Positions 527 to 20,187 of a DNA stretch of 20,313 nucleotides are shown here, piece after piece. This DNA is from a virus. Positions within the stretch are counted from its first letter, which is position 1, and every line of letters starts with the position of its first letter. The stretch covers positions 1-20,313 of IMG/VR virus record IMGVR_UViG_3300031721_000055; one strand, 5' to 3'. The notes under the pieces were generated by a model that did no database searches, was not told where the DNA came from, and was given only the letters and a program-made list of their open reading frames with translations. The translations under genes were made by a program, and so were the position numbers.

Positions 527-745
527 ATGATTAACTCTGAACAATTCAAAGCTGACCAGACTAAAGATAATCTACTTGAAAAGATGTACCACTACCTAGG
601 TGAGAGCAAGCTACACAAAGCAAACTTACCTCACTCAGATATCTACTATATACGAGAAGCCCTACATGAAAGGGTAGGGAAATGGTTCACCTTTAAGCAG
701 GTTGAGATGGCAGTTAAACTACATGAACAACGGTATCCTATATGA
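527..745 (+). CDS. Small protein of unknown function preceding terS
   Basis: This 72-residue protein is mostly charged and helical in character, with the stretch SDIYYIREALHERVGKWFTF near residues 37-56. It has no signal peptide or membrane segment. I recall short proteins with a similar 'SDI-YIREAL' core beside terminase genes of marine phages, but know of no function. There is no Shine-Dalgarno before the ATG and promoter P2 ends almost on it, so translation may be leaderless; an alternative start is the ATG at 584 (residue 20). Its stop overlaps the terS start in ATGA (742-745), which suggests translational coupling and a partner role for TerS or packaging. Confidence 0.7.
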   Translation: MINSEQFKADQTKDNLLEKMYHYLGESKLHKANLPHSDIYYIREALHERVGKWFTFKQVEMAVKLHEQRYPI

Positions 746-1104
746 CACGACAACTATCAGAACAACAGCAGCTATTCCTACAAGTACTCTTTGAAGATGC
801 TGGCGGTAGCGTTGTACGTGCTAAGGAATTAGCAGGATATGCTAAGTCTACCTCTACTACCTCCATTGTTAAGTCACTGAAGGAAGAGATAGCTGATCAT
901 ACTCAAATGTACATAGCTCGTAATGCACCTCAAGCTGCAGTAGCTATGGTGTCTGGTCTAACTGACCCTACACAGCTAGGCATTAAAGATAAGATGAATG
1001 CTGCTAAGGATATGATGGATCGTGCAGGCTTCGCCAAGACAGAGAAGGTAGAAGTTAAGACCACTGGAGGTATTATGTTACTTCCACCAAAGAATTCGGA
1101 CTAA
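742..1104 (+). CDS. terS: Terminase small subunit
   Basis: The 120-residue protein should recognise viral DNA and hand it to the large terminase at the portal. The first half (about 5-60) is helical and could form a DNA-binding helix-turn-helix: SEQQQLFLQVLFED, then VRAKELAGYAKSTSTTSIVKS. The second half has an oligomerisation-type helix, KDKMNAAKDMMDRAGFAKTE. The end, 'KTEKVEVKTTGGIMLLPPK', is a tail style I associate with small terminases of marine phages. Length is normal for the family. It is coupled by ATGA to the preceding gene and lies one tRNA upstream of the large subunit, which supports the call. No distinct Shine-Dalgarno is visible. Confidence 0.8.
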   Translation: MTRQLSEQQQLFLQVLFEDAGGSVVRAKELAGYAKSTSTTSIVKSLKEEIADHTQMYIARNAPQAAVAMVSGLTDPTQLGIKDKMNAAKDMMDRAGFAKTEKVEVKTTGGIMLLPPKNSD

Positions 1105-1118
1105 CCCTCCAGAGAGAA

Positions 1119-1132
1119 TTGCCTAACGGCAA
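1119..1132 (+). other. Small hairpin just after terS
   Basis: TTGCC (1119-1123) and GGCAA (1128-1132) form a 5-bp stem with a four-base loop, fifteen bases after the terS stop. No run of T follows, so it is not a convincing intrinsic terminator. It may be part of the structured region that continues to 1395. Confidence 0.3.
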
Positions 1133-1140
1133 ACTAAATT

Positions 1141-1206
1141 AGTAGAGATACACAGCACTTACGCCAATAAAATAATATAATATGAGTGGCTGATAGTATC
1201 TCTACT
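1141..1206 (+). ncRNA. Long imperfect hairpin upstream of the tRNA
   Basis: AGTAGAGATAC (1141-1151) pairs perfectly with GTATCTCTACT (1196-1206). The stem continues inward after a small internal loop: CAGC (1153-1156) with GCTG (1189-1192), then ACT (1157-1159) with AGT (1185-1187) around a bulged G1188. That gives eighteen pairs closed by an A/T-rich loop (1160-1184). It ends ten bases before the tRNA. A role in processing the terS-terL transcript, for instance as an RNase III substrate, is inference. Confidence 0.55.
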
Positions 1207-1216
1207 TCCCCTACAT

Positions 1217-1293
1217 GTTTGAGTAGCTCCAATTGGAAGAGCGGTGGATTCCAAACCCACAGGTTGTAGGTTCGAGTCCTACCTCATTCGCCA
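1217..1293 (+). tRNA. tRNA-Trp(CCA)-like gene with mismatched stems
   Basis: The cloverleaf reads: acceptor GTTTGAG (1217-1223), D stem GCTC/GAGC with loop CAATTGGAA, anticodon loop TTCCAAA with CCA at 1251-1253, T stem GTAGG/CCTAC with loop TTCGAGT, acceptor 3' strand CTCATTC, discriminator G1290 and an encoded CCA. D and T arms are perfect. The acceptor has two adjacent T-T mismatches (1218/1288 and 1219/1287) and the anticodon stem has an A-C mismatch (1248/1256). It could be a working phage tRNA, a decaying one, or a tRNA mimic. No integrase is seen, so I do not call it an attachment site. Confidence 0.7.
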
Positions 1294-1338
1294 AATTAAT
1301 AGTGCTTCATCCTCTCCTATTCAAGCAGTAGTGACGTT

Positions 1339-1395
1339 GAGGCCATTCGAGACTACACAAAGGTACGCCCAGTGTAGCAGAGGAATGGAAGCCTC
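1339..1395 (+). ncRNA. Three-segment hairpin in the leader of the large terminase
   Basis: GAGGC (1339-1343) pairs with GCCTC (1391-1395), CATTC (1344-1348) with GAATG (1383-1387), and CTACAC (1353-1358) with GTGTAG (1372-1377). The segments are separated by a 3-base bulge and a purine internal loop GAGA/CAGAG, closed by a 13-base loop. Sixteen pairs in all. It ends eleven bases before the AAGGA ribosome site of the next gene. It may be an RNA-processing site or a translation control element; a short T-run after it (1396-1398) is too weak to call a terminator. Confidence 0.55.
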
Positions 1396-1417
1396 TTTGT
1401 AATAGAAGGAAATTATA

Positions 1418-1843
1418 ATGGAACTAGCGGAAGCATTACCCAGTGCAGGTGAGTATGAACTACCCGATATAGATTTAGACTCATATGAATGGGTTCCTAT
1501 ACCACGCATAGGCAGGACAGTTCCTTTTGGATACCTACTATGTGAAGATGATAACGATATACTTGTACCAATCCCTGATGAACTAGACTTGTTAGAACAA
1601 GCAAAGAAACACTTGAAGTTGTACTCATACCGTGAAGTATCGGCATGGCTAACAACTCAATCGGGCCGCAGTATTTCACACATGGGTTTGAAGAAGAGAG
1701 CAGACAGTGACAGGAAGAACAAGACTAAAGCTAGAAGCGCAAATTACTGGGCCGAGCGGTACGCCAAAGCCAAAGCAATTGCGGAAAAGTACGAAGGCCA
1801 CCGCAAAGGTGCAAGAAACTTTGCCGATAGAAGATTTGTCTAG
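1418..1843 (+). CDS. N-terminal domain of the large terminase, separate frame
   Basis: A strong ribosome site, AAGGA (1406-1410), sits seven bases before the ATG. The 141 residues include 'WVPIPRIGRTVPFGYLL' (26-42), 'LVPIPDELDLLEQAKKHLK' (49-67), 'VSAWLTTQSGRSISHMGLKKR' style sequence (74-93) and a basic helix to the end. I recall this arrangement as the N-terminal part of large terminases in marine phages, where it is continuous with the ATPase; the middle looks like a helix-turn-helix that may contact DNA or TerS. Here it stops at TAG 1841-1843 and the ATPase continues in the +1 frame. It may be a stand-alone protein, the first half of a frameshift product, or the result of a one-base sequencing error. 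Confidence 0.7.
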   Translation: MELAEALPSAGEYELPDIDLDSYEWVPIPRIGRTVPFGYLLCEDDNDILVPIPDELDLLEQAKKHLKLYSYREVSAWLTTQSGRSISHMGLKKRADSDRKNKTKARSANYWAERYAKAKAIAEKYEGHRKGARNFADRRFV

Positions 1844-3284
1844 CCCTGCTATTGTATTAGCTGAACATATACATGAAGAAGCACCACAGAATGTTATCTT
1901 TACCCCTAATGCAGGCCCACAGACAGACTTCCTAGCAGCAGGTGAGAGAGAAGTTCTATATGGTGGTTCTGCTGGTGGAGGTAAGTCATATGCAATGCTT
2001 GCAGACCCTCTACGATACATTACACACCCACAGTTCTCTGGGTTAATACTACGTCACACTACAGAGGAACTCCGTGAGTTAATCTGGAAGTCTCAAGAGA
2101 TGTACCCTAAGATCATTCCGGGGATTAAGTGGTCTGAACGTAAAATGACTTGGACTGCACCATCAGGTGGCAGACTATGGTTCTCCTACTTAGACAAAGA
2201 TGATGACGTATCACGATACCAAGGTCTATCCTTCTCATGGGTAGGCTTTGACGAGCTTACACAATGGGGTACTTCGTATGCATGGGACTATCTAAGGTCA
2301 CGACTACGTAGTACTGCAACTGATCTTCCTATTTACATGAGAGCTTCTACGAACCCCGGTGGTCGTGGACATGCTTGGGTAAAGAAGATGTTCATTGACC
2401 CTGCTCCATATGGTGAAGCCTTTGATGCTACTGATTCAGAGACTGGTAACCCAATGGTATATCCAGCAGGACACTCCAAGGAAGGTTTAGCATTGTTTCG
2501 TAGGAAGTTTATTCCTGCTAAGCTATCTGATAACCCTTACCTAACGGAGACTGGTGATTATGAAGCTAACTTGCTTTCCTTGCCTGAACAACAGCGTAGG
2601 CAGCTACTTGAAGGAGACTGGGACATTGCAGAAGGTGCGGCTTTCCCTGAATTTAACCGTAGTATACATGTGGTGGAACCTTTTGAAATACCCAGTAACT
2701 GGACTAAGTTCAGGGCTGGAGACTATGGCTATAGTTCTTACTCCGCAATTGTATGGTGCGCTGTAGCTCCTAATGATCAGTTAATTGTTTACCGAGAGAT
2801 GTATGTCTCTAAGGTATTAGCAGAAGATTTAGCAGACATGATCCTTGAAGCAGAGAAGGGTGATGGACAGATAAAGTATGGGGTGTTAGACTCCTCTTGT
2901 TGGCACAAACGTGGTGACACTGGCCCTAGTATAGCTGAACGTATGACACAGAAGGGGTGTAGATGGAGGCCATCTGATAGGTCTAAAGGAACTAGAGTAT
3001 CAGGTAAGAATGAAATGCATAGAAGGCTACAGGTGGATGACTTCACTGGAGAGCCTCGGATGATTATATTCAATAACTGTAATAACCTTATATCTCAATT
3101 ACCTACTATACCATTAGACAAGAAGAATCCAGAAGATATAGATACTAATTACGCACATGATCACCTATATGATGCACTCAGATATGGTACGATGTCTCGT
3201 CCTAGATTTGGTGTATTTGATTATGATCCTGCATCAGCAAGACCTAATACACAGTATTTAGCAGATCCTATAATGGGTTATTAA
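1707..3284 (+). CDS. terL: Terminase large subunit, ATPase and nuclease domains
   Basis: This is the packaging motor and genome-cutting enzyme. Counting from the GTG at 1707, it shows Walker A GGSAGGGKS (86-94), Walker B FSWVGFDE (176-183), the coupling motif NPGG (216-219), and nuclease acidic residues in GDYGYSS (D339), VLDSS (D395) and HDHLYDALRYG (D485/D489). The first 35 or so residues are read from DNA that also encodes the end of the 141-residue ORF and are probably not real coding in this frame; family-like sequence begins near 'ETLPIEDL' (37-44). The purine-rich GAAGAAGAGAG before GTG 1707 lies inside the upstream gene. No ATG is available before Walker A. The true product is either a frameshifted fusion starting at 1418 or a shorter protein. 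Confidence 0.88.
   Translation: MTGRTRLKLEAQITGPSGTPKPKQLRKSTKATAKVQETLPIEDLSSPAIVLAEHIHEEAPQNVIFTPNAGPQTDFLAAGEREVLYGGSAGGGKSYAMLADPLRYITHPQFSGLILRHTTEELRELIWKSQEMYPKIIPGIKWSERKMTWTAPSGGRLWFSYLDKDDDVSRYQGLSFSWVGFDELTQWGTSYAWDYLRSRLRSTATDLPIYMRASTNPGGRGHAWVKKMFIDPAPYGEAFDATDSETGNPMVYPAGHSKEGLALFRRKFIPAKLSDNPYLTETGDYEANLLSLPEQQRRQLLEGDWDIAEGAAFPEFNRSIHVVEPFEIPSNWTKFRAGDYGYSSYSAIVWCAVAPNDQLIVYREMYVSKVLAEDLADMILEAEKGDGQIKYGVLDSSCWHKRGDTGPSIAERMTQKGCRWRPSDRSKGTRVSGKNEMHRRLQVDDFTGEPRMIIFNNCNNLISQLPTIPLDKKNPEDIDTNYAHDHLYDALRYGTMSRPRFGVFDYDPASARPNTQYLADPIMGY
1805..1843 (+). other. Candidate +1 frameshift window joining the terminase frames
   Basis: The upstream frame reads K-G-A-R-N-F-A-D-R-R-F-V-stop (1805-1843); the other frame reads through as V-Q-E-T-L-P-I-E-D-L (1809-1838). 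A shift of +1 anywhere between GCA 1811 and GTC 1838 joins them. Features that could favour a shift are the AGA codons at 1814, 1829 and 1832, TTT-G at 1820 and 1835, and the TAG at 1841. No classical prfB-like signal (CTT TGA with a spaced Shine-Dalgarno) is present. Confidence 0.4.
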
Positions 3285-3306
3285 CTTAACATTTTGTGAG
3301 TAACAA

Positions 3307-5382
3307 ATGGCAGAACCAATCCAAGAACTAAGCAGTGCATCCGTAGCTTTAGAAGATGTATCAGAAGCATCAGACGAGAAGCTATATGTTAGTAGTTTAG
3401 TCACCACAGTAGAAGAACGCTTTACAAAGGCAGAGACTGCACGTAGGCAATACGAAGAACAGTGGTTACGCAACTACAAGAACTATCGTGGTGTGTATAG
3501 TGATGCAGTTAAGTTCACTGAAGCTGAGAAGTCTCGTGTATTCATTAAGGTTACAAAGACTAAGGTACTCGCTGCCTATGGTCAGATAACTGATGTGTTA
3601 TTCAGTGCAGGACGCTTCCCTCTATCTGTAGATCCTACAGTGTTACCTGAGGGTATCTCTGGTGATGTACACTATGACCCAGCTGATAAGGGTCAAGAAG
3701 GCCCAGAGGCAAGTCCTTATGGCTTTGCTGGTGATGGTAATGACCTACCTGCTGGTGCTACTGAAGCTTCTTTACAGCTTGGTGCAATGGAGGCTAAGCT
3801 TGAGGGCAAGGATGTTAAAGAAGGCATGGGTAGTTCACCTACTTCTGTTAACTATAACCCTGCTATGCTTGCAGCTAAGCGTATGGAAAAGAAGATCCAT
3901 GACCAGCTAGACGAGTCAGAAGCAACTAAACAACTACGATCTGCAGCATTCGAGATGCCTCTCTTTGGTACTGGTATCATGAAAGGCCCAATGGCTGTGG
4001 ACAAGGAGTACCCAGATTGGGACGAGGAAGGTAACTACATTCCTGTCATCAAGACTGTACCTAAAGTATCTTACGTGTCTGTATGGGACTGGTATCCAGA
4101 TCCTGATGCTGCCACTGTAAGTGACTGTCAGTACTCAATTCAACGTCATAAGATGAACCGCTCACAACTACGTGAACTTAAGCGTAGACCTTTCTTCCGT
4201 AAGGATGTCATTGAAGATGTTATCACGCAAGGTGAAAACTACATTAAGAAGTACTGGGAAGATGATCTTAAAGACTACCAGCTAGACTCAGGTGTTGATC
4301 GCTTTGAGGTACTAGAGTACTGGGGTGTGATGGACATGCAGACTATAGAAGACCATGAGATTGATATTCCAGATGAACTAAAATCAGCTGATGAACTTCA
4401 AGTAAACATCTGGATCTGTAATGGTCGTGTGGTACGCTCAGTGCTTAACCCATTCAAACCTGTACGTCTACCTTACTACGCAGTACCTTATGAGCATAAC
4501 CCTTATTCAATCTTTGGCATTGCCTTAGCTGAGAACATGGATGATACGCAGACTCTTATGAATGGTTTCATGCGTATGGCTGTGGATAACGCTGTACTCT
4601 CTGGTAACCTAATCTTTGAGGTAGATGAAACTAACCTAGTTCCCGGGCAGGACATGCAGTTGTATCCGGGTAAAGTATTCCGTAGGCAAGGTGGTGCTCC
4701 GGGACAAGCGTTGTTCGGTACTAAGTACCCTAATGTATCTCAAGAGAACCTACAGTTATTTGATAAGGCACGACAGTTAGCAGACGAGTCTACAGGCTTA
4801 CCTTCTTTCTCCCATGGACAGACAGGTGTAACTGGTGTAGGTCGTACCTCTAGTGGCATTAGTATGCTAATGGGTGCTGCAGCTGGTGGTATTAAGACTG
4901 TTATTAAGAACATTGATGATTACCTGTTAGGGCCAATGGGCAAGAGCTTCTTCCACTTCAACATGCAGTTTGACTTTGATAAGGCCATTCGTGGTGACTT
5001 AGAGGTTAAAGCTCGTGGTACTGAGTCTCTAATGGCTAACGAAGTACGCAGTCAACGTCTGTTACAGTTCCTACAGGTTGGTGCAAACCCTGCCTTAGCA
5101 CCTTGGATGAAGTCACAATACATCATCCGTGAGATTGCTAAGTCAATGGAGCTAGACCCTGATAAGGTAACTAACAATGTTGAAGAAGCACAAGCACAAG
5201 CACTAATCATGCAACAGCAACAAGCTGAAGCACAGGCGGCTGCTCCACCACAAGGAGGTGCTCCTAATCCTTCTGATCCTACTGGGGCAGGTAATGGTAA
5301 TATCGGAATGGGTCAAGTACCAGTTCCGGGTGAACAAGGATTTAGTGGCAATGAATCTGCTCCTGCTGAAGCACCTCTGTAA
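3307..5382 (+). CDS. Portal (head-tail connector) protein
   Basis: The 691-residue protein would form the ring at the unique vertex through which DNA passes. Characteristic stretches are 'VWDWYPDPDAATVSDCQY' (259-276), 'LPYYAVPYEHNPYSIFGIAL' (388-407), 'ENMDDTQTLMNGFMRMAVDN' (409-428), 'LYPGKVFRR' (452-460) and 'GRTSSGISMLMGAAAGG' (512-528), which fit P22/T7-type portals of marine podoviruses. The C terminus is Q/A-rich (about 625-650) then G/P-rich and probably disordered. Length is within the usual range for short-tailed phages. The start has a weak GTGAG site six bases upstream. It lies directly after the large terminase, the standard neighbour. Confidence 0.9.
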   Translation: MAEPIQELSSASVALEDVSEASDEKLYVSSLVTTVEERFTKAETARRQYEEQWLRNYKNYRGVYSDAVKFTEAEKSRVFIKVTKTKVLAAYGQITDVLFSAGRFPLSVDPTVLPEGISGDVHYDPADKGQEGPEASPYGFAGDGNDLPAGATEASLQLGAMEAKLEGKDVKEGMGSSPTSVNYNPAMLAAKRMEKKIHDQLDESEATKQLRSAAFEMPLFGTGIMKGPMAVDKEYPDWDEEGNYIPVIKTVPKVSYVSVWDWYPDPDAATVSDCQYSIQRHKMNRSQLRELKRRPFFRKDVIEDVITQGENYIKKYWEDDLKDYQLDSGVDRFEVLEYWGVMDMQTIEDHEIDIPDELKSADELQVNIWICNGRVVRSVLNPFKPVRLPYYAVPYEHNPYSIFGIALAENMDDTQTLMNGFMRMAVDNAVLSGNLIFEVDETNLVPGQDMQLYPGKVFRRQGGAPGQALFGTKYPNVSQENLQLFDKARQLADESTGLPSFSHGQTGVTGVGRTSSGISMLMGAAAGGIKTVIKNIDDYLLGPMGKSFFHFNMQFDFDKAIRGDLEVKARGTESLMANEVRSQRLLQFLQVGANPALAPWMKSQYIIREIAKSMELDPDKVTNNVEEAQAQALIMQQQQAEAQAAAPPQGGAPNPSDPTGAGNGNIGMGQVPVPGEQGFSGNESAPAEAPL

Positions 5383-5554: not shown

Positions 5555-7829
5555 GAATGGCTATGAAGAAGGCGGTTTCTTAGATGATGGTGCAAGTGTA
5601 GATGCTGTATCAGGTAACGAAGTACCAACAGGCTCATTACAGTCGGAAGTACGAGATGATATTCCTACCCAGTTAAGTGAGGGTGAGTTTGTAATACCAG
5701 CTGATGTAGTACGTTTCATTGGTTTAGAGAAGCTCATGAAGATTCGTGCAACAGCCAAGGCAGGTTTAAGTGCTATGGAAGAGGAAGGCCAGATTGGTGG
5801 TCAACCTGCTCCTATGGAGCTAGATGAAGATGGTGAGATGGATGCTCTCATTGATGGTCTAGATGGTGAAGACTTTGAAGGTGCTATACAGAACTTTGCA
5901 GAAGGCGGCTCAATATCTAAGATGCCATCTTACAAGAAGTACATGGGCCGTGAGTTCGGCAAGACACAACAAATTGAGTTCCGTACTTTCATTAATGCCT
6001 CTGGTGATAAGATTGTTATTAAGTTTGTAGACGGACAACCTCTACGACCTATACCTGAAGGGTACTCTCCCTACGTTGAAGGTGATACACCAGAGGCTCC
6101 ACCAGAAGGTGAGGGTGTTACTGGTACAAGTGGGGGTGACGGTGGTGGATCTACTATGCAGAAGAATGATCCCAACAACCCATGGAAGGGCATTACTGCT
6201 CCGGGTGATTCAGACGCTATCAAGGAGCATCACCAGATCCGATCAGATAGGGTTACCCGTGATCGTGCAGCTGCACTTAAAGACTTAGGTGAACAGTTTA
6301 AGGATGAGACTAGTAGTACCATGGTCAATAAGCAGATGCAGAACTATATGACCCCTGATGCACTAGAGATATTTAATACACGGGGAACTAATAAAGACAG
6401 CTGGGAATGGTCTTTACTTAAGAATAAGACACCTGCAGAACTTGCTATCTGGGCGCAGAAGACTGCAGACACTATCCGTAGAACTTCGGGTCTACCTGAT
6501 CCTTTTTACACAGGAGAACCTGAAGGGAATATGGGTAAGGTAGGAGAATTCTTCTCAGAGGCCTTTAGTGGTGGTGGCGATATACTAGACATTATTAAGC
6601 GTGTTGGTGTAATTGCTATTGGTTCTGGCGTTGGCATCCCTTCGTTTATTATGAATGAGTTGTATGATAAGGCAGGTGGTGATAAGGCTGTAGTGGATGA
6701 TGCAATAGCACAGCAAGGAGCAACAGTAGAAACCTCAAGTGGTTCAGGTACAACCGAACTAGAGGATGCACTAAATATTCAAAAAGATCTTACTGTTAAG
6801 TTACAGGACGCAGAGGATCGTGGTGATAGTATTACAGCACAGAAGAATACTGCAGCAGCAGAATGGGCAGGAAAGGAAGCACAGTCTGACGCTATTCAAA
6901 AGGCTACACTTGAAGCACTTGCTACACAGAAGGGTGAGTGGGATGCAGAGAGTGAAGCATACACTACTAAGTTGGCAGACGCTGAGATTACACGAGGTAA
7001 CGTAGCAGATAATCACGCACTGCAACTCTCTGTTCAAAAGGAAGATGCAGAAACTAAGTACAATGAAATATCTGCTGCATTGAAGGGTTCTGAAGGTAAA
7101 ACTGATGCAATCACTCTGGCACTACAGGCTGCTAAAGATAAAGCAGCAGAGGATATTAGTAGTTTATCCACTCAACTACTTGAGTCTAACACGAATCTAT
7201 CCACACAGAAATCTGCTTGGGATACTTCAGAAGCTGACTGGGATGTTAAGCAGGGTGACTGGGATACAGTTAATAAAGAGTGGTCAGGTAAAGTAGATCA
7301 ATCAAATGCTATTCAAGCTGCACTACAGGAAGACTTGGCTAATACTAAGCAAGCTCTTGCAGACTCACAACAGGCAGTACAGGATAAGGATGTTGCTCTA
7401 TCAAACAAGGATGCTGAGTTACAGGCTGCCATTAATTCACGGCCTAATACTCCTCCTCCGGGAACAGGAACTACTACACCTGTAACACCCCCTAAGACTC
7501 CTCCGGCAACAGGTGGTGGAGGCCACCCTAGTGCTGGTAGTGGTGGAGGCAACAATGGTAGTGGTGGTTACACTCCACCATCAGACACAGGTGGCGGTGG
7601 CGGTGGCGGTGGTGGCTACACAGGGGGTTGGGGTAATTCCGGCTATAGCCAGAAGAAAGCTATGGAGACAGGCAATGGGTATCTTAATAAAGGTGGCTTG
7701 ATTAGGAAGGAAGATACGCCTACTATCAAGAAGATGCGTTCTGACAACACTACAGGCCTAGCAGCTAAGAAGAAATCAAAAGAAAGAGCAAAAGCTAAAA
7801 AGGGAGCTTTGGCAGCAAAACGAACTTAA
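5544..7829 (+). CDS. Large structural protein with coiled coil and Gly-rich tail, function unknown
   Basis: Of 761 residues, the N terminus carries 'SGNEVPTGSLQSEVRDDI' (23-40) and 'LSEGEFVIPADVVRFIGLEK' (44-63), a signature I associate with a common but uncharacterised protein near the portal in marine podoviruses. Then follow an acidic linker, a Gly/Pro linker (about 182-203), a helical region, a short hydrophobic segment 'VGVIAIGSGVGIPSFIM' (354-370), a long coiled coil (about 404-630) with Trp-rich repeats such as 'EWDAE', 'AWDTS', 'DWDVKQGDWD', a Pro/Gly-rich linker (633-698) and a basic tail ending KKKSKERAKAKKGALAAKRT. The hydrophobic segment and basic tail could suit an ejected or internal virion protein. 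The start has GAGAGAG upstream and overlaps the preceding gene by 11 bases. Confidence 0.75.
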   Translation: MKSKNGYEEGGFLDDGASVDAVSGNEVPTGSLQSEVRDDIPTQLSEGEFVIPADVVRFIGLEKLMKIRATAKAGLSAMEEEGQIGGQPAPMELDEDGEMDALIDGLDGEDFEGAIQNFAEGGSISKMPSYKKYMGREFGKTQQIEFRTFINASGDKIVIKFVDGQPLRPIPEGYSPYVEGDTPEAPPEGEGVTGTSGGDGGGSTMQKNDPNNPWKGITAPGDSDAIKEHHQIRSDRVTRDRAAALKDLGEQFKDETSSTMVNKQMQNYMTPDALEIFNTRGTNKDSWEWSLLKNKTPAELAIWAQKTADTIRRTSGLPDPFYTGEPEGNMGKVGEFFSEAFSGGGDILDIIKRVGVIAIGSGVGIPSFIMNELYDKAGGDKAVVDDAIAQQGATVETSSGSGTTELEDALNIQKDLTVKLQDAEDRGDSITAQKNTAAAEWAGKEAQSDAIQKATLEALATQKGEWDAESEAYTTKLADAEITRGNVADNHALQLSVQKEDAETKYNEISAALKGSEGKTDAITLALQAAKDKAAEDISSLSTQLLESNTNLSTQKSAWDTSEADWDVKQGDWDTVNKEWSGKVDQSNAIQAALQEDLANTKQALADSQQAVQDKDVALSNKDAELQAAINSRPNTPPPGTGTTTPVTPPKTPPATGGGGHPSAGSGGGNNGSGGYTPPSDTGGGGGGGGGYTGGWGNSGYSQKKAMETGNGYLNKGGLIRKEDTPTIKKMRSDNTTGLAAKKKSKERAKAKKGALAAKRT

Positions 7830-16515: not shown

Positions 16516-19500
16516 ATGTCTAAGGCAAGAAACATTGCAGACCTTTTAGAAGCAGATGGTGAAGTCAAAGCTAGTAGGGTTGATGCTCACTCGCTACCTC
16601 TAGCTGGCGGCACGATGACAGGTAACATTGCTACCAAAGGTATCAGTGCAGTCACAGCAGGTACATCAAACTTTGTAGCAGGTGTTAACGCGGGTAACTC
16701 TATTGTATCTGGTGGTAACAATAATACGTTGGTAGGTGATGAAGCTGGTACTGCAATTACCACAGGAGACAACAACACAGCAAGTGGTAAAAGTGCTTTA
16801 GCCGCTAACAATACGGGTGGTAACAATACTGCTAGTGGGTTTTACGCTTTATCCGCTAACACCACTGGTGCATCAAACACCGCAGTAGGTAAAGATGCTT
16901 TATCAAACAACACTACGGCTAGTAGTAACACCGCTGTTGGTACTGCTTCTTTAGCAGTAAACACCACAGGCTCAAGCAATACCGCTTCTGGCACTAGCGC
17001 ATTACAATCCAACACTACAGGCTCTAACAACACAGCTAGTGGCTATCAGGCTTTAAGGGCTAACACCACGGGCACTGTTAACGTAGCGGTAGGTACTATA
17101 GCCTTAGCCGCCAATACTACAGGTAATTACAATACAGCTAGTGGTTATGCTTCTTTAGCGTCTAACACTACAGCAGCTCAAAATACTGCCGTTGGTTACT
17201 CCGCTTTAACAGCCGCTACTACAGGTGCTAATAACACTGCTGTAGGTTCCCAATCTCTAGCCTCTACTACTACGGCAGCAGATAACACGGCGGTTGGTCG
17301 GAGTGCATTACAGGCCAATACCACAGGTATACGTAACACTGCTGTAGGATATGCTGCTTTAGATGCTAACACTACAGCGCATGACAACTCAGCTTTTGGT
17401 GAGTCATCATTATCCGCAAACACTACAGGAGCACGAAATACTGCAATAGGTCGGGATGCTTTAAAGGCTAACACTACCGCAGGCAGTAACGTGGCTGTTG
17501 GTTTTCAAGCTTTATATGCTAACACCACAGGTGCCTCTAATACTGCGGTAGGTGAAGGTGCATTAGATGCTAACAGTACCGCTAGTTATAACACAGCAGT
17601 TGGTAGGGATGCTTTAGGTTCTAACACCACAGGCCAGAAGAATATAGCAATGGGTTATAACTCCCTGACCTTAAACACCACGGGTGACTACAATATAGCA
17701 ATAGGCCATGTTGCACTAAACTCTAATACTACTGCTGATAGTAATACAGCGGTAGGTTATTATGCGCTTAATGCTAACACCACAGGCGATCAGAATACAT
17801 CGATAGGAGGAAACTCTTTAATTGCAAATACCACGGGTAGAAATAACGCATCCCTCGGATATACTTCTCTAAAATCAAACACCACAGGCTCCAGCAATAC
17901 AGCACTAGGTGCTAACGCACTATGGTCAAATACTACAGCTAGTAACAACACAGCGGTTGGATTAAGTTCCTTATTTGCCAACACCACAGGATCTAATAAT
18001 ACAGCAAGTGGCTATCATGCTCTGTATGCTAACACTACGGGTGGTTATAACTCTGCTTTTGGTGAAGGTGCTTTACAAGCTAACACTACGGGTAATAATA
18101 ACTCAGGGTTGGGTAGACAGGCTTTGAAAGCTAATACCACAGGCTCTAGTAACGTGGCTGTTGGTCTTAATGCTCTTTGGAGTAACACTACAGCTAGTTA
18201 TAATGCGGCAGTAGGTCAGCAAGCTTTGCAAGCTAACACCACAGGTTATAATAATAATGCTGTCGGTTTTGTCTCTTTGTACTCAAACACTACAGGCAAT
18301 CTAAACTCATCTTTAGGATCGTACACTCTATATGCTAACACCACAGGCTCTCGTAACACAGCAGTAGGCTATGACAGCTTATATCAAAACACTACAGGTT
18401 CAGATAACTCTGGTAGTGGCGCTTATTCTTTATTCTCTAACACCACAGGATCCAATAACACTGCAAGTGGCTTTGAGGCTTTGAAGGCTAACACCACAGG
18501 CTCTGACAACACTGCCGTTGGATTACAAGCTCTCTGGAAAAACACTACAGGCATACGAAATGTAGCAACAGGAAGAAGTGCCTTAGAGAATACCACTACA
18601 GGTTCATATAACACATCTTACGGTACATACACTGGGCAGGCTGCCACCACGGCAGAATATAATGTATTTCTAGGCTATAAGGCAGGGCAAGCCACAACCA
18701 CAGGAGCTGTTAATACTGTAGTTGGTGCAGAGGCACTCCTATCTAACACCACAGGTGCCGCTAACGTAGCCGTTGGTAATAGTGCATTGAGGAGTAATAC
18801 CACAGCTTCTTATAACACTGCTGTAGGTCGTGAGGCTTTATACTCTAACACTACAGGTGCATTAAACGTAGCTACTGGCTATCAGGCTTTAATGGCTAAC
18901 ACTACAGGAGCCAACAACACCGCCATTGGTAGGATGGCACTAAAAACTAACACTACTGGCTCAGACAACACTGCTAGTGGCTTGAATGCTTTATTTGCTA
19001 ATACTACGGGTATTAAAAATACATCTACTGGCAGGAGTTCAATGGAGTTAAACACTACAGGCTCCAACAACACCGCTAGTGGTTTTGAGTCTATGGCATT
19101 TAACACCACAGGCTCCAACAACACTGCTAGTGGCTTTGAGGCCCTGTATAAGAACACCACAGGTGGCAGCAACACTGCGGTAGGTCTTTATGCCATGCTG
19201 TACAACACCACAGGATCTGTAAATACAGCAATTGGAACGTCTGCCTTACAGAGCAACACTACAGCCAGCTACAACACTGCGGTAGGTCGAGAGGCTCTAA
19301 AGGATAATACTACAGGGTCTGCTAACTCAGCCCTTGGTATTAACTCTTTGGCAGCTAACACTACAGGCTCCAACAACACAGCTAGTGGCTATCAGTCTTT
19401 GAAGTTTAACACTACAGGAGCCAACAACACAGCTAGTGGTTTTGCCTCCTTGTACTCAAATACTACAGGTGCCTCAAACGTAGCAGTTGGAGCTAGATCG

Positions 19501-20187
19501 CTAGAAGCCGCAACTACTGCACCAGAGAATACTGCGGTAGGTAAGGACGCAGGAGGTGGCATTACATCGGGGGGTTATAATGTATTCATAGGTTTCAACA
19601 CAGGCAAGTACAATACAGCAACCACTCAAGGCCAGCAGAATACACTAATAGGTTCTTATTCTCACACTTCTAGTGCGACAGGTTTTAACCAAATATGTTT
19701 AGGCCATGACGTTAATAGTGCGGGTGATAACACGGTAACTATAGGTAAGGGCCATGGCAGTAGTAACAGAATCTATAATACTTTTACATCTAACGCCACT
19801 TGGACGCATTCGTCAGATGAAAGACTTAAGAAGGAAATATCTTCAAACAATGATTGTGGCTTGGACTTCATTAACGCATTACGTACAGTTACCTACAAAT
19901 GGAAAGCGCCATCTGAGTTAGATCCGTCTATGTACAACTATGATGCTGATAAGTCTTCAGTAGAATATGACAAAAAGATGTACGGTTTTGTTGCTCAAGA
20001 AGTTAAAGCAGCGATGGATACTCATAACATAACGGACTTTGCAGGTTACAGTAAGCTGGAAGATGGTATAGACAATATAGAAGGCATCTCCTATGAGATG
20101 TTTGTTGTTCCCTTACTGAAAGCAGTACAAGAATTATCAACCAAGAACGCAGCACTCGCTGCACGTATAGCAGCACTAGAGGAATAA
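16516..20187 (+). CDS. Tail fibre 2 with 57 repeats and S74 self-cleaving chaperone
   Basis: The 1223-residue protein opens 'MSKARNIADLLEADGEVKAS', an attachment style common in marine phage fibres, then 'LAGGTMTGNIATKG'. Residues 69-1037 are an unbroken array of 17-residue units, consensus [N/S]NTAxGxxALxxNTTGx. A less regular link (1038-1095) leads to the S74 intramolecular chaperone: 'HSSDERLKKE' at 1098-1107 contains the conserved S-D-x-R-x-K; by analogy with K1F endosialidase, cleavage would fall between S1100 and D1101, releasing a 123-residue trimerisation domain. The end 'LKAVQELSTKNAALAARIAALEE' type sequence is a coiled coil. AGGAG (16503-16507) lies eight bases before the ATG. Confidence 0.87.
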   Translation: MSKARNIADLLEADGEVKASRVDAHSLPLAGGTMTGNIATKGISAVTAGTSNFVAGVNAGNSIVSGGNNNTLVGDEAGTAITTGDNNTASGKSALAANNTGGNNTASGFYALSANTTGASNTAVGKDALSNNTTASSNTAVGTASLAVNTTGSSNTASGTSALQSNTTGSNNTASGYQALRANTTGTVNVAVGTIALAANTTGNYNTASGYASLASNTTAAQNTAVGYSALTAATTGANNTAVGSQSLASTTTAADNTAVGRSALQANTTGIRNTAVGYAALDANTTAHDNSAFGESSLSANTTGARNTAIGRDALKANTTAGSNVAVGFQALYANTTGASNTAVGEGALDANSTASYNTAVGRDALGSNTTGQKNIAMGYNSLTLNTTGDYNIAIGHVALNSNTTADSNTAVGYYALNANTTGDQNTSIGGNSLIANTTGRNNASLGYTSLKSNTTGSSNTALGANALWSNTTASNNTAVGLSSLFANTTGSNNTASGYHALYANTTGGYNSAFGEGALQANTTGNNNSGLGRQALKANTTGSSNVAVGLNALWSNTTASYNAAVGQQALQANTTGYNNNAVGFVSLYSNTTGNLNSSLGSYTLYANTTGSRNTAVGYDSLYQNTTGSDNSGSGAYSLFSNTTGSNNTASGFEALKANTTGSDNTAVGLQALWKNTTGIRNVATGRSALENTTTGSYNTSYGTYTGQAATTAEYNVFLGYKAGQATTTGAVNTVVGAEALLSNTTGAANVAVGNSALRSNTTASYNTAVGREALYSNTTGALNVATGYQALMANTTGANNTAIGRMALKTNTTGSDNTASGLNALFANTTGIKNTSTGRSSMELNTTGSNNTASGFESMAFNTTGSNNTASGFEALYKNTTGGSNTAVGLYAMLYNTTGSVNTAIGTSALQSNTTASYNTAVGREALKDNTTGSANSALGINSLAANTTGSNNTASGYQSLKFNTTGANNTASGFASLYSNTTGASNVAVGARSLEAATTAPENTAVGKDAGGGITSGGYNVFIGFNTGKYNTATTQGQQNTLIGSYSHTSSATGFNQICLGHDVNSAGDNTVTIGKGHGSSNRIYNTFTSNATWTHSSDERLKKEISSNNDCGLDFINALRTVTYKWKAPSELDPSMYNYDADKSSVEYDKKMYGFVAQEVKAAMDTHNITDFAGYSKLEDGIDNIEGISYEMFVVPLLKAVQELSTKNAALAARIAALEE
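16720..19626 (+). repeat. 57 tandem 51-base coding repeats without an indel
   Basis: Each unit of 17 codons carries NTAVG/NTASG near its start, AL or SL in the middle and NTTG or NTTA near its end. The first unit, at 69-85 of the protein, is the most degenerate, as are units near the end (EAATTAP, GGGITSGG). Units differ strongly at codon level, so most are old. The spacing never slips, which fits selection on a repeating fold such as a trimeric beta-helix or YadA-head-like stack. Confidence 0.9.

Follow-up and report, generated by a model that had tools for sequence, protein, structure and literature searches.

A conserved hairpin beside an acquired tRNA and a shortened PemK-linked RNA in the terS–orfX gap of a marine phage: a possible toxin decoy

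What occupies the gap between the terminase genes of this phage, and do its parts act together? A first-pass annotation had drawn two long hairpins bracketing a tRNA-Trp-like gene between terS and terL, and had proposed that processing at these hairpins releases the tRNA and parts the two messages, as at the RNase III sites of T7, or that the hairpins control the TerS:TerL ratio. The window, by which we mean the whole stretch of DNA analysed, is a 20,313-base viral contig and represents part of a marine phage genome of the HMO-2011 type. We make this assignment because it encodes a terminase large subunit, an SU10-type portal, a P22-like coat protein and an adaptor (PHROG, Pfam), and because Roseobacter phages CRP-1 and CRP-345 and Puniceispirillum phage HMO-2011 give nucleotide matches to it (blastn). 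The terminase, portal and capsid genes are related and their order is conserved. The window reads terS, gap, orfX, terL, portal, and CRP-1 and HMO-2011 have the same succession of genes, although in these two phages terS overlaps the next ORF and, unlike in the window, there is no terS–orfX gap. A terS gene is present in every relative apart from partial contigs, the comparison contigs being public and fragmentary, and orfX has no match in PHROG or Pfam. The features of the region are as follows.

742–1104, plus strand: terS, terminase small subunit (PHROG 2538, E 1.8e-5), ending 36 nt before hairpin 1
1119–1132, plus strand: mini-hairpin TTGCC-TAAC-GGCAA, from alignments against L095 and L132
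1141–1206, plus strand: hairpin 1, with an 11-bp lower stem (1141–1151/1196–1206) and a 5-bp upper stem (1156–1160/1184–1188)
1216–1435, plus strand: acquired insert (blastn breakpoints 1215/1436 against L095)
1217–1293, plus strand: tRNA-Trp (CCA)
1311–1342, plus strand: 5′ domain of the toxin-linked RNA, CCTC/GAGG (1311–1314/1339–1342) around CTATT-CAAGC-AGTAG (1317–1331)
1344–1377, plus strand: conserved core, CATTCGAGA and the hairpin CTACAC-AAAGGTACGCCCA-GTGTAG
1379–1396, plus strand: short third hairpin AGAGG-AATGGAAG-CCTCT, then TTGTAAT; identical in L118
1418–1843, plus strand: orfX, a conserved ORF of unknown function that overlaps the terL start
1707–3284, plus strand: terL, terminase large subunit (PHROG 979, E 3e-62; Pfam PF03237, E 1.8e-11)

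Comparison with relatives separates these parts. The sister phage L095 is 99.7% identical to the window over 1436–4000 and 97.9% identical, gaps included, over 1–1215, and it has 35 other nucleotides where the window has the insert 1216–1435, which comprises the tRNA, the toxin-linked RNA, a new ribosome-binding site and the first orfX codons. A single conserved hairpin-tRNA-hairpin cassette was therefore rejected: relatives lack both the tRNA and hairpin 2, and the bracketing is seen in the window phage alone. On the evidence of these breakpoints, the tRNA-Trp and hairpin 2 (1216–1435) are a recently acquired cassette that is unrelated to hairpin 1. The tRNA-Trp(CCA)-like gene was itself correctly recognized (ARAGORN; Rfam tRNA 46.1 bits), and the sequence shows two U-U mismatches within its acceptor stem, plus one A-C mismatch in the anticodon stem. 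Exact copies of this tRNA were not found in other viral contigs.

The slot that received the insert starts at the same place in the relatives, directly after CTTCCCCTACA (CTTCCCCTTTCC in L132). Most clade members have no tRNA in it; L132 has a tRNA-Asn after hairpin 1, and in L118 and L119 the slot contains a tRNA-Trp with an internal deletion, followed by hairpin 2, a tRNA-Ser(GCU) and further tRNA-like sequence. This insertion slot just 3′ of hairpin 1 gains and loses tRNA genes, and the window phage acquired tRNA-Trp there together with a short RNA copy. The mini-hairpin at 1119–1132 falls within a stretch of ~24 nt that is common only to the tRNA-bearing L132. Several other contents of the region deserve mention. 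Behind the tRNA-Ser(GCU) of L118, a second tRNA-like sequence with a long variable arm (2364–2480), uncalled by ARAGORN, reads as a Ser(UGA) tRNA-like element. The same slot in L104 (about 6353–6465) holds a different noncoding AT-rich insert of ~110 nt in which TATGTAGATA is repeated. Among more distant relatives (L010–L080), the terS–orfX gap often contains various small ORFs, many with a RKGGMVLSTVDNRK-like tail, and reads as a wider accessory-gene slot.

Hairpin 2 as drawn (1339–1395) is the minimum-energy fold of its stretch, with a z-score of −1.76 and 7 of 200 shuffles as good, and the longer stretch 1294–1417 gives a z-score of −0.47. The inner stem (1353–1358/1372–1377, with a 13-nt loop) is real, but the hairpin as a whole is barely above chance. 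The drawn fold is more stable in the window than the fold typical of the RNA family described below (−18.3 vs −14.8 kcal/mol); in L118, the outer stem is poorly kept and the corresponding values are −7.5 vs −14.8 kcal/mol. The covariation expected of the drawn hairpin did not materialize. It is absent from almost all relatives, L095 included, and no exact copies of its inner stem occur in other viral contigs. A role as a T7-like RNase III site is unsupported, and hairpin 2 is instead an abbreviated member of a toxin-linked RNA family.

The family to which this RNA belongs emerged from the sequence CTACACAAAGGTnnGCCCAGTGTAG, common to the window and L118, whose pattern was also matched by 8 further viral contigs and by 6 from Gammaproteobacteria, the latter against ~0.01 chance occurrences expected in that collection by our own estimate. 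Relatives of the core were found only by a pattern with two free bases, and outside this pattern the preceding CATTCGAGA is also common to the copies; a looser pattern for the 5′ end gave 19 hits that are mostly chance. In proteobacteria, the full RNA is about 115–130 nt in length, single and non-repetitive, with one per locus. In bacterial copies of 124–132 nt, a 5′ hairpin (CCTG/CAGG) precedes the core hairpin, and behind the core come the long hairpin of domain 2, with loop GATGACAA, then a terminator and the tail TTGTCAT. Two-sided changes are found at 14 of its pairs, 10 of them in domain 2. The domain-2 loop is complementary to the 3′ tail at 7 of 7 positions in 4 of 11 sampled RNAs and at 5–6 of 7 in the others, some of the changes being paired. 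A further viral search, which left free three bases of the core 5′ strand and the whole 3′ strand, returned the core-stem variants CTGCAC/GTGCAG, CTGCGC/GCGCAG, CTTCAC/GTGAAG and CTGTAC/GTACAG, and G-U intermediates are present in L214 and L215. Covariation of the core stem is seen in A5, and we regard this stem as supported because the variants in the free columns and the G-U intermediates keep pairing.

The window copy carries the conserved hairpin with CATTCGAGA and AAAGGTnnGCCCA, and its core is matched at 36.6 bits by model R1, which was built without the window (E 1.8e-8, the E-values of the RNA models being rough owing to short calibration). The sequences for R1 were picked by the core pattern, and the protein-first searches given below are independent of that pattern. 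The 5′ domain emerges when the window is set against L202, L118 and bacterial copies, and its hairpin CTATT-CAAGC-AGTAG matches CTGAT-CTAGC-ATCAG of phage L202 with compensatory changes. Where the bacterial RNA has domain 2 and the terminator, the window has the 18-nt hairpin 1379–1396; both the terminator and the domain-2 loop are absent from the window copy, and no promoter is evident before it. A search of Rfam 15 (4227 families) returned only the tRNA in window positions 1000–1500 at E ≤ 5, Rfam gave no match at the RNA in viral or bacterial loci, and nucleotide similarity revealed no copy in annotated phages or plasmids. The family is computationally shown to be real and is undescribed within the open-licence literature, an earlier description elsewhere being possible.

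The bacterial loci suggest a link with a toxin. Of the first 6 bacterial contigs, 5 have a PemK/MazF-like gene directly before the RNA. This toxin belongs to PF02452 PemK (E 2e-14; 47 and 53.9 bits vs a curated cut-off of 23.1). When the search starts from the protein in a sample of Gammaproteobacteria, the RNA is found just downstream in 4 of the 5 genomes with this PemK group, one of the RNA-linked toxins being only 41% identical. Two of these five genomes (G001 and G003) are seeds of the family, and the independent weight lies in the plasmid and further Pseudomonadota sets, where the RNA is present at 5 of 8 plasmid loci (toxin identity 33–41%) and, at E ≤ 1e-4, in 9 of 10 additional Pseudomonadota genomes selected on the protein only; in the tenth, a weak RNA match lies in the right place. 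From the toxin stop codon to the RNA the distance is 13–72 nt, both being on the same strand. Matches of the RNA-first model number 7 among 369 gammaproteobacterial genomes and 7 among 293 genomes of one order. Both the protein-first and the RNA-first searches link the RNA to PemK, and the PemK gene and the downstream RNA are therefore a conserved module.

The association has exceptions on both sides. Bacterial RNAs with no PemK neighbour occur in L209, L213, L214, L217, L265, L268 and L270, and the toxin locus of L222, which has no RNA, carries an HTH-type ORF directly upstream instead. No consistent adjacent ORF that could be a protein antitoxin was found at the RNA-linked toxin loci. The toxin sequence has no match in PADLOC, NCBIfam or PDB, and an AlphaFold model of it was unusable (pLDDT 38). 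Individual loci also show unusual arrangements: the full-length RNA of L209 (7044–7173, minus strand) immediately follows a gene resembling that of a ribonucleotide reductase small subunit, and in L216 (1009–1438) and L210 (2037–2473) the PemK gene is frameshifted and the downstream RNA well preserved.

Toxins of type III toxin-antitoxin systems share the MazF/Kid/CcdB fold, their antitoxins are pseudoknotted RNAs, and the type is defined by an antitoxin RNA that lies upstream of its toxin gene, a terminator separating the two (PMC5086642). From the architecture of the PemK module and from this likeness, we infer that the bacterial RNA probably controls the PemK toxin and neutralizes it; it would do so as an RNA antitoxin that employs the loop-tail interaction. 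As in ToxIN, CptIN and TenpIN, a toxin of the MazF-fold RNase type would stand beside a structured RNA with what may be a pseudoknot-like interaction. However, the toxin here is a PF02452 PemK protein, the RNA lies downstream of it (by 13–72 nt) rather than upstream, and tandem repeats are absent, so that the module departs from type III in both the position and the form of its RNA. The type II systems PemIK and MazEF have toxins of the same PemK/MazF family (PF02452), but the PemK genes considered here have a structured RNA beside them and no conserved small protein antitoxin gene. If true, this proposal would add an RNA-based toxin control system, of which present database annotation shows nothing but a solitary type II PemK/MazF toxin.

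Phage copies of the RNA are found in about ten unrelated lineages without PemK, and most of them sit with late genes: ahead of terL (L197), between terL and portal (L196, L202 and L203), and before or after capsid genes (L198 and L232). In L202, a tRNA array (Pro, Leu, Thr, Asn) lies directly behind the RNA. The RNA of L197 (about 2630–2885) has an identical 29-nt direct repeat, CTAGAAGAAAGAAGAAGGATTAACCAGAT, on both sides, which suggests insertion by duplication before terL. All 13 phage copies have the core and most keep the 5′ hairpin, but the domain-2 loop, which is present in near bacterial copies, is missing from 11 of the 13, the window copy included. Because of this loss, the phage copies may be unable to inhibit the toxin. 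In the reading that we prefer, they are decoys or partial mimics and would bind the toxin once late genes are transcribed.

A precedent exists in phage PhiTE, whose pseudo-ToxI is a phage RNA that resembles a bacterial antitoxin and was shown to suppress ToxIN (PMC3475682). There, as here, a phage has an antitoxin-like RNA without a toxin. The RNA family and toxin are different, however, and the PemK-linked RNA is carried by many unrelated phages. Phage tRNAs have been proposed or shown to evade RNA-cutting defences (PMC10264068, PMC11555353), and in the present clade, too, phages gain tRNAs and replace them at one slot, although the tRNA-Trp of the window has stem mismatches. That the neighbouring tRNA fits a response to RNA-cleaving defences is speculation.

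For the locus as a whole, our confidence is evenly balanced on the reading that an ancestral hairpin 1 stands beside an acquired cassette of tRNA-Trp and toxin-linked RNA, with the phage copies acting as toxin decoys. We advance more tentatively the broader proposal that the PemK-linked RNA is an antitoxin of an undescribed class, single, non-repetitive and downstream, that is spread over proteobacteria and plasmids and of which many unrelated phages carry stripped-down decoys; in the window phage, the decoy would adjoin a tRNA within an exchangeable slot. The phage copies might instead represent a late-operon RNA, with a role in packaging, termination or processing, that the bacterial pair has borrowed, or they might be inert passengers of tRNA cassettes. 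We judge this unlikely, but it deserves serious consideration, as copies lie in the terminase-portal-capsid region of several unrelated phages and most have lost domain 2. Against it stand the strong linkage of the full RNA to a bacterial toxin gene and the retention of the core in L118, where the adjacent tRNA-Trp has decayed. If the decoy reading is true, phage RNA mimicry, so far represented mainly by pseudo-ToxI, recurs in about ten phage lineages, and near-identical phages with and without the cassette in one slot offer a concrete test bed.

Hairpin 1 has a different history. Its 66 nt fold at −22.3 kcal/mol, compared with a mean of −8.7 for shuffled sequences (z-score −5.7; none of 200 shuffles equals it), and the pairing originally drawn at 1141–1206 is thus real. 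A clade defined by an orfX search, and hence blind to the hairpin, comprises 37 contigs at ≥89% identity, below which orfX identity falls to ~60%, two short fragments excepted. Hairpin 1 lies between terS and orfX in all 37, most of which lack a tRNA. Among 22 distinct variants, all 10 lower-stem pairs are always standard, with 100% of cells paired (99.7% for hairpin 1), and five of the ten show two-sided changes (C-G to U-A, G-C to A-U, A-U to G-C); this signal is lost on sliding or shuffling. The element accordingly passes the covariation check among relatives with the same flanking genes, with no pair broken. One U-G pair is near-invariant, and GCACTTACGCC and GAGTGGC in the upper part are nearly invariant. 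A model of hairpin 1 found no match among 82 loci outside the clade. We conclude that this structured element is genuine and specific to its lineage, and is most likely an RNA, and the alignments identify it as an ancestral cis-element of this HMO-2011-type clade. As its form is both paired and sequence-conserved, we read it as a putative cis-acting site in the terS–orfX/terL leader that would be recognized in the late transcript, with candidate roles in processing, stability or translation of the terS/terL message or as a protein site. A promoter was also considered and rejected, the signal being weak and barely over chance.

Among more specific roles, hairpin 1 might regulate the translation of orfX and terL in cis, with CTTCCCC after the stem pairing with the orfX Shine-Dalgarno sequence (GGAAG). 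CTTCC(CC) is kept in nearly all 22 variants, and most relatives have AGGAAG within 10–40 nt of it. We nevertheless find this rather doubtful, given that inserts in the window, L104, L118 and L132 shift the Shine-Dalgarno sequence away from the stem and only a 4-bp match is left in L006 and L095.

The T7-like proposal, in which RNase III would cut at each hairpin to release the tRNA and divide the terS message from that of terL, is improbable. Hairpin 1 does have a compatible architecture, with two stem segments and an asymmetric internal loop, and always lies between terS and orfX/terL; T7 sites likewise lie between late genes and have internal loops. However, it is equally conserved in tRNA-less relatives, the sequence of its upper stem and loop start is conserved more than an RNase III site would need, and hairpin 2, whose drawn form is weak, is missing from nearly every relative. 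Hairpin 1 also differs from the T7 sites in its clade-specific sequence conservation. Because nearly all 37 relatives have the hairpin and no tRNA, it cannot exist to free the tRNA; a role in separating the terS and terL messages or in the TerS:TerL ratio is possible. Least probable of all is a pac or cos packaging site acting as DNA, which would suit an element that adjoins terS/terL and is conserved across the clade, but the compensatory changes and near-invariant U-G pair suggest a folded RNA rather than a double-stranded DNA site.

Two further features of the window lie outside this region. A cluster of DnaA-box-like repeats at 17–70 (TTATCCCCA, TTATCCACA twice and TTACCCACA) is followed by AT-rich noncoding DNA to position 526, and this stretch near terS is a candidate replication origin. 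At 16516–20187, an ORF of 1223 aa contains dozens of near-identical repeats of the NTTGSNNTASG type, and its C-terminal end resembles tail-fibre chaperone domains.
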